A stretch of DNA of 7,448 bases. Origin: a bacterium. Its GTDB lineage: Bacteria; Arandabacterota; Arandabacteria; Arandabacterales; Arandabacteraceae. The DNA is taken from NCBI GenBank assembly GCA_029933125.1, contig JAOZOU010000029.1, forward strand, positions 1-7,448. The letters are read 5' to 3'. Under the pieces are notes generated by a model. That model was not told the origin of the DNA, made no database searches, and worked only from the letters and a program-made list of their open reading frames with translations. Below, piece by piece: positions 2,332-5,491 of the stretch (its first letter is position 1; the number at the start of each line of letters is the position of its first letter). Both the position numbers and the translations under genes were made by a program.

Positions 2332-2709
2332 CTAAGGTCCTTCGCCGAGGAGATCGACGGCATCTTCGACCGAGATCTCGCCTTTGCGGAGCTTTTCGAA
2401 GACATCGGCGCGACTCATGCGTGGTGCGGCCCCACGGTACCCTTCCGCGATGCCCAGTCCTGCGAGAAGCTCATCGAGGCGCTTGCGTACTGTTGGATAG
2501 GAGATGCCGAGTTGGCGTTCTACTTCCTTTATGTTGCCGCGGGTTGCTAGGAAGACATGCATGAAGTGGCGCAGATCAGGTGGGAGTGCGCAGTAGCGGC
2601 ATGTTTCGATGTCAGTCATGATCCTCGTCCTGCACTTTGGACATGTGAGCTCGGTAATGCGCAAGCTGGCTTTGCAGGCTGGGCACTCACCAATTGGCCT
2701 TGCATTCAT
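2332..2709 (-). CDS. DUF2089 family protein: zinc ribbon plus helix-turn-helix, putative regulator
   Basis: A 125-residue protein in three parts. An N-terminal zinc-ribbon-like segment has CPAC (Cys9, Cys12) and CPKC (Cys23, Cys26), with a further CRYC pair (Cys37, Cys40). A central helix-turn-helix like sigma-70 region 4 follows (RGNIKEVERQLGISYPTVRK, about residues 57-76). A short SHOCT-like C-terminal segment reads LRKGEISVEDAVDLL. This order matches the DUF2089 family, whose function is not established; DNA binding is inferred from the HTH. The frame is open upstream to 3018, but I chose the ATG at 2709. AGGGG (2722-2718) lies 8 bases before it, the protein then begins just before the first CxxC as in the family, and the 103 upstream codons are low-complexity and unlike protein. 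The gene converges on the rmlD-like gene (59 bases between) and diverges from the aminotransferase, a natural regulatory target but unproven. Confidence 0.88.
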   Translation of the reverse strand: MNARPIGECPACKASLRITELTCPKCRTRIMTDIETCRYCALPPDLRHFMHVFLATRGNIKEVERQLGISYPTVRKRLDELLAGLGIAEGYRGAAPRMSRADVFEKLRKGEISVEDAVDLLGEGP

Positions 2710-2758
2710 GAATTCAACCCCTGAATTGACAGGTTTAATTATGTCATTGCATTTGTCA

Positions 2759-3189: not shown

Positions 3190-4329
3190 ATGGCAGATAA
3201 GTTCGATAAGATACGGAACCTCTTTCCCGTCACTAAGAAGTTTGTCTATCTCAATCATGCTGCTGTCTCCCCCACTCCCAGGCCTGTTGCCGAAGCCTTA
3301 AGACAGCAAGTGAGTGAGCAGCTTGCTTATGGTGGAAGGGCTGAGGATCTCTGGGAGAAGCGTGCCGAGCAAGCAAGGCGCCAGGCGGCAAAGCTCCTGG
3401 GAGCCAAGCCCAGTGAGATTGCTTTTGTCACCAATACGACGCACGGGCTTAATCTGGTTGCTAGAGGCATACAGTGGAAGCGCGGTGACAATGTCGTTCT
3501 CCCACAGGTTGAGTTCCCAGCCAACGTTTATCCGTGGCTTTCGCTTCAGTCCAAGGGAGTTCGGATAAAGTTTGTGCCAGAAAAAGACGGGCGGATTCGT
3601 CTGGAAGATATCGAGCGTTCGATAGATCGACGGACACGGTTAGTGGCCATAAGCTTTGTCGAATTCTTGAGCGGATACCGCAATGACCTCAAGGCGTTAG
3701 CGACAATCTGCCACAGCAAAGGTGTCTATCTCGTCGTTGACGGAATCCAGGGTATTGGAGCTCTTAAGCTCGATGTCAAGAAGGCAGGAATTGATGCCCT
3801 GTCAGCGGGTGGACACAAATGGCTGCTTGCACCACAAGGCACGGGGATTTTCTATTGCCGACCCGAGCTCCTTCGGCAACTGGAGCACCCGATGCCGGGC
3901 TGGATGTCAGTTGTTGGCTGGCAGAACTACTACAAGTTTGAATACAAACTCTTCGATAGCTGCAGGCGATATGAGTCCGCTCAGAAAAATCTTCTTGGGC
4001 TTTGCGGGTTGCTTGAGGCTCTTCGCCTCTTCAACCGGCTCGGTATCGCATCAATCGAACGCCGCATCCTTGCCCTGACCGACTATTTGTGCGAACAACT
4101 CGAGGCTCACGGCTATCGCGTGTTTAGTCCAAGGGGGGATCGTGAGAAGTCAGGCATTGTCTCTTTCTACCCGAAACGGCGCAAGGCTGAAGCCGTCTGG
4201 GCTAGTCTTCTCAAACGAGGTTTCGTCACGTCCGCACGCAAGGGGCGCATCCGCATCTCCCCCCACTTCTACAACACCTTTGAAGAGATCGACCGCCTCA
4301 TCCACGCACTGTCCCGGGGTCGGAGCTAA
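3190..4329 (+). CDS. Aminotransferase class V-fold PLP-dependent enzyme, lacking the desulfurase cysteine
   Basis: A 379-residue fold-type I PLP enzyme of the class V (NifS/SufS/isopenicillin-N epimerase) group. Seen: YLNHAAVSPTPRPV near the N-terminus (20-33), the substrate-loop motif of the family; TNTTHGLN (81-88), phosphate and ring contacts; VDGIQGIGALKLD (183-195), where Asp184 binds the PLP nitrogen and Gln187 the O3' side; SAGGHKWLLAPQGTG (205-219), where Lys210 forms the Schiff base; and RIRISPHFYNT (353-363), with an Arg of the carboxylate-binding type. In group II cysteine desulfurases the loop before that segment carries RSGxxCA. Here it reads SARKGRIR, so no catalytic cysteine is present and sulfur transfer is unlikely; a lyase, epimerase or kynureninase-like reaction is possible. 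ATG at 3190 is preceded by GGGG (3175-3178), a loosely spaced ribosome site. The last codons and TAA stop lie inside the left end of a repeat element, although the family's C-terminal helix appears complete. Confidence 0.9.
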   Translation: MADKFDKIRNLFPVTKKFVYLNHAAVSPTPRPVAEALRQQVSEQLAYGGRAEDLWEKRAEQARRQAAKLLGAKPSEIAFVTNTTHGLNLVARGIQWKRGDNVVLPQVEFPANVYPWLSLQSKGVRIKFVPEKDGRIRLEDIERSIDRRTRLVAISFVEFLSGYRNDLKALATICHSKGVYLVVDGIQGIGALKLDVKKAGIDALSAGGHKWLLAPQGTGIFYCRPELLRQLEHPMPGWMSVVGWQNYYKFEYKLFDSCRRYESAQKNLLGLCGLLEALRLFNRLGIASIERRILALTDYLCEQLEAHGYRVFSPRGDREKSGIVSFYPKRRKAEAVWASLLKRGFVTSARKGRIRISPHFYNTFEEIDRLIHALSRGRS

Positions 4330-4337
4330 AAATCTGC
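4316..4337 (+). repeat. Element end repeat, copy 1 (left)
   Basis: Begins GGGGTCGGAGCTAAAAATCT and continues GC. It contains the TAA stop (4327-4329) of the aminotransferase gene. Its final bases also form a small hairpin, ATCTGC (4332-4337) with GCAGAT (4345-4350) around a 7-base loop. No T-run follows, so it is not an intrinsic terminator. Confidence 0.85.
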
Positions 4338-4410
4338 ATTTCAAGCAGATCGGTACATTTCTTGCTAATGCGCGCAACTCGCTGGTATTTAAGGAGATAA
4401 CGTAACTACA

Positions 4411-4440
4411 ATGCCTTTGCCACTATCTCTTAACTCTTAA
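4411..4440 (+). other. Nine-codon open frame with upstream AAGGAG, possible transposase-start remnant or leader peptide
   Basis: ATG at 4411 opens a frame encoding MPLPLSLNS followed by TAA. A strong Shine-Dalgarno AAGGAG lies at 4391-4396, 14 bases upstream, which is longer than ideal. AGGAGATA (4392-4399) can pair with TATCTCTT (4424-4431) over 8 bp with one G-U, which would hide the ribosome site within the frame's own codons. It may be the truncated beginning of a lost transposase gene. Expression is not shown. Confidence 0.2.
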
Positions 4441-4475
4441 CAGCAGACTTTAGCCGTCCCTGATACCCATTTTGA

Positions 4476-4495
4476 AGATTTTTAGCTCCGACCCC
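4476..4495 (-). repeat. Element end repeat, copy 2 (inner right)
   Basis: Exact reverse complement, over 20 bases, of the start of copy 1. Read on the minus strand it continues TCAAAATG, similar to the CAAATTG that follows copy 3. The two right copies therefore resemble each other beyond the core, as related IS ends would. Confidence 0.85.
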
Positions 4496-4509
4496 AAAAC
4501 TGGCAATTT

Positions 4510-4531
4510 GCGGATTTTTAGCTCCGACCCC
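4510..4531 (-). repeat. Element end repeat, copy 3 (outer right)
   Basis: Reverse complement of copy 1 with one difference in 22 bases (CCGC instead of CTGC after AAAAAT). It lies 36 bases beyond copy 2 in the same orientation. Confidence 0.85.
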
Positions 4532-4533
4532 GA

Positions 4534-4648: not shown

Positions 4649-5491
4649 GTGGGCCGTCATGAAAGCGACAGCTTCAACTTCCATTGCAGTCCAAAAGTGG
4701 TGGATGAAGAAAGTTTGAGGAAGCAGCTGCAGCGCAAAAGAAAAAGGCTTGAAAATCTAGTCCGCTATCTCAGATCTGGACTCATAGTCGAATTCGGATG
4801 CGGTAGCGGCTTCGTCCTTGGATTTCTTTCTGAAGTTGCAGCCGACAGCCACATCATCGGGGTCGACAGGCTGCCAGAGAGGCTTGCAGCTGTCTCCGAA
4901 AGGGGTCTCCACAATGTGGTGACAGTCTGCGCAGACATAGAAGACAGCATTTTCCCCGATGGGGTGTTCGACACTGCAGTATTCATCAATTGCCTCCATG
5001 AGATTTTCTCGGAGAGAGGGCGCGAAGGCGTCCTGGGAGCTCTGAGGATTGCATCGACCGTACTGAGAAGGGGTGGGGTCGTGCTCATACAAGATTACCT
5101 GAAGCCAGAGCCACAGGCTATTGAGGTGGAGTTTGCCAACAAGTCGCTTCTCGAGAGGTTCATGAGATTCGCAAAGGAATTCAAGCCGCGGCAGGTGAAC
5201 TACGAGATCGAGGGCAGCACAGCAAAACTTGATGTGGCAGATGCGGTCGAATTCATTACCAAACATCATGCGGAGGGCGAGGAGCACTGGCAGGAAGAAA
5301 TGCGTGAGAGCCATCTGTTTTTCACGGAGGAGGATTTCAGGCAAGCCCTTAGGGAAGCTGGTTTCAATGTCGTAGCGATTGAAAGAATCAAGGACGCTCA
5401 AGCATACCGCGAGGCAGTCGAAGGTCTTAAACTCAAGCCCCCCGTCGAGGTTGAATGGGTCCAGGTCATCGGGAAGAAGCCCGGCGACTGA
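4649..5491 (+). CDS. Class I SAM-dependent methyltransferase, substrate unknown
   Basis: A 280-residue protein with a Rossmann-like methyltransferase core. Motif I is VEFGCGSGFVLGFL (47-60), with the GxGxG-type SAM loop and Glu48. The acidic residue after beta-2 is Asp73 (GVDR), and the adenine-contact residue is Asp96 (CADIED). Motif IV is FINCLHEIF (112-120), and RRGGVVLIQDYLKP (140-153) is the post-IV strand region. A charged N-terminal helix (about 20-42) precedes the core. The C-terminal part contains KHHAEGEEHWQEEMRESHLFFTEEDF (from 205) and the EAGF turn (236-239) that usually closes such domains. The FxNxxHE signature suits small-molecule or lipid/quinone-type methyltransferases, but the substrate cannot be read from sequence. 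An upstream in-frame TGA (4610-4612) makes GTG 4649 the first possible start, with AGGGG at 4633-4637. It is convergent with the membrane protein, 40 bases away. Confidence 0.88.
   Translation: MGRHESDSFNFHCSPKVVDEESLRKQLQRKRKRLENLVRYLRSGLIVEFGCGSGFVLGFLSEVAADSHIIGVDRLPERLAAVSERGLHNVVTVCADIEDSIFPDGVFDTAVFINCLHEIFSERGREGVLGALRIASTVLRRGGVVLIQDYLKPEPQAIEVEFANKSLLERFMRFAKEFKPRQVNYEIEGSTAKLDVADAVEFITKHHAEGEEHWQEEMRESHLFFTEEDFRQALREAGFNVVAIERIKDAQAYREAVEGLKLKPPVEVEWVQVIGKKPGD

Follow-up and report, generated by a model that had tools for sequence, protein, structure and literature searches.

A TIRtron-type element with a putative sigma54 promoter motif inside its left end

In the 7,448-nucleotide stretch of bacterial DNA analysed here, hereafter the window, a class-V aminotransferase gene is followed by a short repeated sequence that occurs once in the forward direction and twice inverted. 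This arrangement, with one left end and two right ends, raises the questions of what kind of element it is, which enzyme may have moved it and what lies between its ends.

The three ends and the history of the site

The 18-base sequence GGGGTCGGAGCTAAAAAT is found exactly at 4316–4333 on the forward strand and at 4478–4495 and 4514–4531 on the reverse strand, and none of 200 dinucleotide shuffles of the window contains a copy with up to three mismatches. The outer arms (4315–4338 and 4509–4532) are 23–24 nucleotides long and 96% complementary, and the two right-end copies form 28-nucleotide direct repeats, 89% alike, with a period of 36 bp. These exact matches and arms bear out an earlier sequence-only reading, which had described a 20–23 bp sequence with one forward and two inverted copies, the last two 36 bases apart, and nearly identical outer ends. 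As that reading also said, there is no transposase gene within the element, and its view of a MITE-like, non-autonomous, two-ended element is supported. A search of the element against Rfam gave no match, and no target duplication is evident by eye at the ends, whose outer flanks show nothing beyond C/T richness. Folded as a single strand, the stretch does far better than its shuffles (z −4.8), as expected from an inverted pair. The parts of the element and the adjoining genes are listed in Table 1.

Table 1. Features of the element and of the flanking genes in the window.
Feature	Position	Strand	Remarks
Class-V aminotransferase gene	3190..4329	+	Native 3′ end replaced by the insertion; now ends ..ALS-RGRS*
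Left end repeat (TIR), GGGGTCGGAGCTAAAAATCTGCA	4316..4338	+	115 genomic copies; TAA at 4327–4329 is the present aminotransferase stop codon
Sigma54-type −24/−12 motif, TCGGTACATTTCTTGCTA	4350..4367	+	GG at 4352–4353, GC at 4364–4365; weaker version of the family consensus YTGGCAYG-N4-TTGCTA
Element interior	4368..4472	.	Resembles neither other copies nor the G001 element at this site
Inner right end repeat	4473..4495	-	Repeat matches
Tandem right-end copy, 36-bp unit	4496..4531	-	Core 4515–4531; missing at the same site in G001
Class-I-type methyltransferase gene	4649..5491	+	Downstream of the motif, co-directional; start GTG 4649 or possibly ATG at about 4704

The site can be compared across the group, each species of which is represented by one genome, apparently in all cases a metagenome assembly. 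In the sister species (G001), the aminotransferase orthologue is 86% identical and likewise runs into an end; its frame goes on to SQKRAR*, and the protein here finishes in RGRS*, its stop being the TAA inside the repeat. The same-site element there bears only one right end, and the gene downstream of it is not the methyltransferase. In four relatives from other genera, the aminotransferase has a stop of its own after ALP or ALPDQASALA, no element is found next to the gene, and the genes further downstream differ from those of the window; sites free of the element, which the sequence-only reading had proposed to seek in relatives, are thus found at the orthologous position in other genera. Because the element is present in the sister species and in none of these other genera, its insertion at the aminotransferase stop codon most likely dates to the common ancestor of the genus, and, since the sister species has one right end, the extra right end probably arose later in this species by tandem duplication.

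A dispersed end family and a single Y1 transposase

Allowing up to two mismatches, a search of the 3.23-Mb genome gives 115 copies of the 17-base end and none of the reversed pattern, so the many genomic copies that the sequence-only reading had named as support are borne out. Across 40 stretches retrieved around end copies, 18 pairs face inwards and 1 diverges, and the facing pairs are 49–50, 104–120 or about 180 bp long, with some longer spans. We considered the longer pairs as carriers of cargo and rejected this, as the open reading frames there resemble ordinary chromosomal genes between separate insertions. Extra ends stack outwards: of 38 tandem steps at the retrieved loci of this genome, 37 measure 36 or 37 bp, which makes the extra right end of the window one such array step. 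A single end folds at about 0 kcal/mol, with no stable hairpin, and lacks a GTAG tag; it is therefore not a classical REP.

Several minor features accompany the ends. Those at the same site in the two species (window 4316–4332 and L207) differ by a species-specific base, being AGCTAAAAA here and mostly AGCCAAAAA in G001, and it looks as if all copies in each genome had been kept uniform together. C and T prevail in the 12 bases outside the ends in both species, position −9 being a C in 74% of cases in G001; this may reflect target choice or an outer portion of the element. Loci L067 and L069 have in common an additional stretch of 229 bp, 95% identical, which is a separate repeat beside the end.

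Exactly one Y1_Tnp gene is present in the genome, with three ends lying to one side of it and two to the other, in agreement with the suggestion that a transposase elsewhere in the genome recognises such ends. Its product of 291 amino acids passes the NCBIfam model NF047646 (REP-associated tyrosine transposase) at 94.6 bits against a cutoff of 80, matches Pfam Y1_Tnp at 2.6e-11 and contains NHYH and YVLLNP, corresponding to the HuH motif and the Y---NP signature; its C-terminal region matches HTH_8 and HTH_IclR at E values of 2.5e-4 to 3.8e-4, just short of the Pfam cutoffs. In several genera whose flanks were inspected, the gene neighbours are a gene with a lamin-tail-like end and a radical-SAM gene, and the orientation of the transposase between them is flipped in G004 and G005. 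Such opposite orientations between the same two neighbours, seen among genera at L031, L160, L161 and L165, suggest inversion between the ends of the transposase.

Judged by sequence, the end family and its single Y1 gene are a TIRtron/TIRYT system (Di Nocera et al. 2013, PMC3733652; TnpA-Y1 subclass 2.1 in PMC6006769), a non-palindromic cousin of REP/RAYT, and the window element is classified as a non-autonomous member of it. TIRtrons have inverted repeats with the consensus GGGGWSAS, dispersed as dimers and groups (PMC3733652; PMC6006769); the repeats flanking the transposase fit this consensus exactly in G004–G006 (GGGGTCAG) and are one base off in the genus studied here (GGGGTCGG). Common to both are a RAYT-related Y1 transposase, here perhaps also with the C-terminal HTH-like region, flanking non-palindromic inverted repeats that start with GGGG, and copies that are single, dimeric or grouped. 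As opposed to the known TIRtrons, there are more than 100 copies here, in regular outward arrays of 36/37 bp, and a putative sigma54-type promoter precedes the transposase and has spread with the ends. The searched text of PMC3733652 and PMC6006769 makes no mention of a promoter in TIRtron repeats. REPINs and REPs with their RAYT (Bertels and Rainey 2011, PMC3116915; Nunvar 2010, PMC2817692) likewise form extragenic inverted doublets of about 100 bp and tandem clusters served by one transposase with matching ends, but the end here is non-palindromic and without the GTAG tag, and the doublets bear a promoter-like block. Bacterial MITEs are similarly short, non-coding and gene-adjacent, with inverted ends, whereas here the associated enzyme is of the HuH/Y1 and not the DDE type, no target duplication was seen and the interiors are mutually unrelated.

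A sigma54-type motif at a fixed distance from the end

What the earlier reading overlooked is a sigma54-type promoter motif at a fixed position inside the left end. The pattern GGN10GC lies exactly 36 bases inside the first G of the end in 17 of 63 ends here, every other offset being represented at most three times, and in 12 of 58 ends in G001. The motif family follows YTGGCAYG-N4-TTGCT, and 29 distinct modules yield the consensus YTGGCAYGRWANTTGCTA, with near-random sequence after it and in the 12 bases before it. Four bases are invariant or almost so (G 28/29, G 29/29, G 29/29, C 29/29), with a GG–GC spacing of 10 bp. We take this consensus to be that of sigma54 −24/−12 promoters, with which the modules share YTGGCAYG-N4-TTGCW and the nearly invariant GG and GC; unlike ordinary sigma54 promoters, they stand at a fixed distance from a transposase end repeat. 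The linked pattern of end and motif has 13 and 14 matches in the two congeneric species, as opposed to no more than 2 in any of 288 other genomes, and chance is ruled out by the fixed offset together with this control. The match in G237 is a mimic arising from the start-codon sequence ATG GCA CGN CCN YTN CG. A relic of the transposase's own start codons, which could imitate TGGCACG-N4-TTGC in this way, was also ruled out, as the motif lies upstream of the start in five genes and positions 44–45 are A/T-rich, not CC.

The copy in the window is among the weaker ones: it lies two mismatches from TGGCAYRNNNNTTGCW, is not significant alone in the window and has an off-consensus −24 box (CGGTAC). 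It is retained at the same site in G001, and transcription from it would be expected to start near 4377.

The motif is also found at transposase genes. Among 100 Y1 loci examined, including some duplicates, 7 have it about 31 bp before the start codon; these 7 stand for four distinct genes. In a fifth gene, in G004, it precedes an ATG later than the automatically chosen start; all five genes belong to this order, and at the other Y1 loci examined the motif was not found. The related transposases are 42–60% identical to the one in this genome, and their ends differ (GGGGTCGGAGC, GGGGTCAGAGCTC, GGGGTCAGGTACC). As the motif is common to five genes with differing ends, it is older than the present ends. 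G004–G006 have 78–108 dispersed ends each and essentially no dispersed motif, which is absent from the ends tested there except at the transposase genes themselves; its dispersal is therefore specific to this genus and, as most dispersed ends lack it, is not needed for theirs. More distant transposase genes (L075, L085, L166) have apparent sigma70-like promoters overlapping their ends, for example TTGCAA-16-TATAAT in L085, so the type of promoter seems to have switched in this order.

Retention was followed base by base in five same-site pairs of the two species, the outer flanks being weak in L063/L193 and L035/L216. Identity is 94% in the end, 96% in the −12 box and 73% in the −24 box, against 23% in the spacer and 26% in the 34 bases after the motif. 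A sixth pair, L071/L202, was excluded from these averages for its unusually conserved surroundings (96% identical between the species); there, the motif lies within a G+C-rich hairpin followed by T, resembling a terminator. By site, the motif is present in both species in 6 cases, here only in 1, in G001 only in 1 and in neither in about 8. At the pairs L049/L206 and L048/L198, the total length is equal in both species (108 and 120 bp), although the interiors have little or nothing in common; the 120-bp element lacks the motif here but bears it twice, face to face, in G001. Two facing motifs within one element occur at L038, L192 and L198, the 104-bp elements with head-to-head motifs at L038 (238–377) and L192 (177–280) being examples.

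RpoN is encoded in this genome and its relatives, in G006 only as a fragment at a contig edge, and the genome has about 17 strong matches to activator domains. A strict sigma54 pattern has 32 matches genome-wide, against 6 for the reversed control. Away from the repeats, matching sites lie close before genes, for example 36 bp before the ATG of a secreted protein (L246) and upstream of a PduL-like gene (L249). Genes downstream of the repeat-associated motif are co-directional in the window (the methyltransferase) and elsewhere (lipoprotein in L032, L037, L046), and convergent in other copies.

Weighing the readings

We put at roughly 70% the probability that this is a TIRtron element of a sigma54-driven Y1 transposase, whose left end and promoter were copied together into dispersed elements and retained there. 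The 17–23 bp non-palindromic end would be tied to the single domesticated Y1 (HuH) transposase elsewhere in the genome, which sigma54 polymerase would transcribe when engaged by an activator, from a promoter that in this order is placed between the left end and the start codon. Related TnpA-REP enzymes are established to act on ends in single-stranded DNA (PMC8266576), and the transposase here may act on its own ends in the same form. In this genus, the copied unit would include the promoter, so that elements keep end and promoter and lose the rest. That RpoN polymerase starts transcription at the motif, that the transposase works on these ends and that retention reflects promoter function are what we infer from the patterns described above. 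Several observations speak against this reading: most dispersed ends lack the motif, the copy in the window is off consensus in its −24 box, the downstream genes are co-directional in some copies only, and facing pairs of motifs, as in three elements, would be odd for a gene promoter.

Those facing pairs, with a motif at both ends, suit another idea, that TGGCAYG-N4-TTGCTA is an inner recognition site of the transposase or a hairpin with a TGGCA/TGCTA stem, kept for mobility. The fixed distance of 36 bp from the end, the imperfect dyad with its invariant pairs 38–50 and 40–48, and the recognition of single-strand hairpins by Y1 enzymes point the same way. We nevertheless regard it as unlikely, for the base patterns of the modules disfavour a hairpin: position 37 stays G (28/29) whether it faces T, A or G, where pairing with T would call for A, position 51 shows free variation, and in the transposase genes of G004–G006 the stem fails while the sigma54 consensus holds. 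The motif is, moreover, lacking at most dispersed ends and at the transposase gene's 3′ end. Still less probable is a functionless fossil, in which the elements derive from transposase copies by internal deletion and still carry their 5′ leader; the position of the motif equals that in the transposase gene, about 31 bp upstream, but a fossil should decay evenly, and at the same sites the 12-bp spacer and following bases are randomised (23–26%) as the −12 box remains at 96%, in a small test with few pairs whose outer flanks are certain. Nested insertion of one element into the right end of another, which the sequence-only reading had offered for the three ends, two of them in the same direction, is unsupported and very improbable: nearly all tandem steps have a period of 36 or 37 and stack outwards, the extra copy has no partner left end, and at this site only one right end is present in the sister species.

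Beyond the favoured reading of a promoter copied with the left end, it is conceivable, though we hold this only tentatively, that a sigma54-controlled domesticated transposase seeded portable, activator-dependent promoters that selection keeps because they wire neighbouring genes into the RpoN programme. The methyltransferase gene is a possible target of the window motif and has perhaps been wired in by the element. Why domesticated Y1 transposases persist as vertically inherited single-copy genes is an unanswered question that PMC6006769 discusses, and a conserved sigma54 promoter, if real, would tie such a gene to a tightly gated, signal-dependent programme and give a tangible example of an activator-dependent promoter being spread by a mobile end repeat. 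We found no paper in the open-licence literature that joins these repeats with sigma54, which is weak evidence given that coverage. Elsewhere in the window, a gene for a DUF2089 zinc-ribbon/helix-turn-helix protein (2332–2727, reverse strand) is unrelated to the element.
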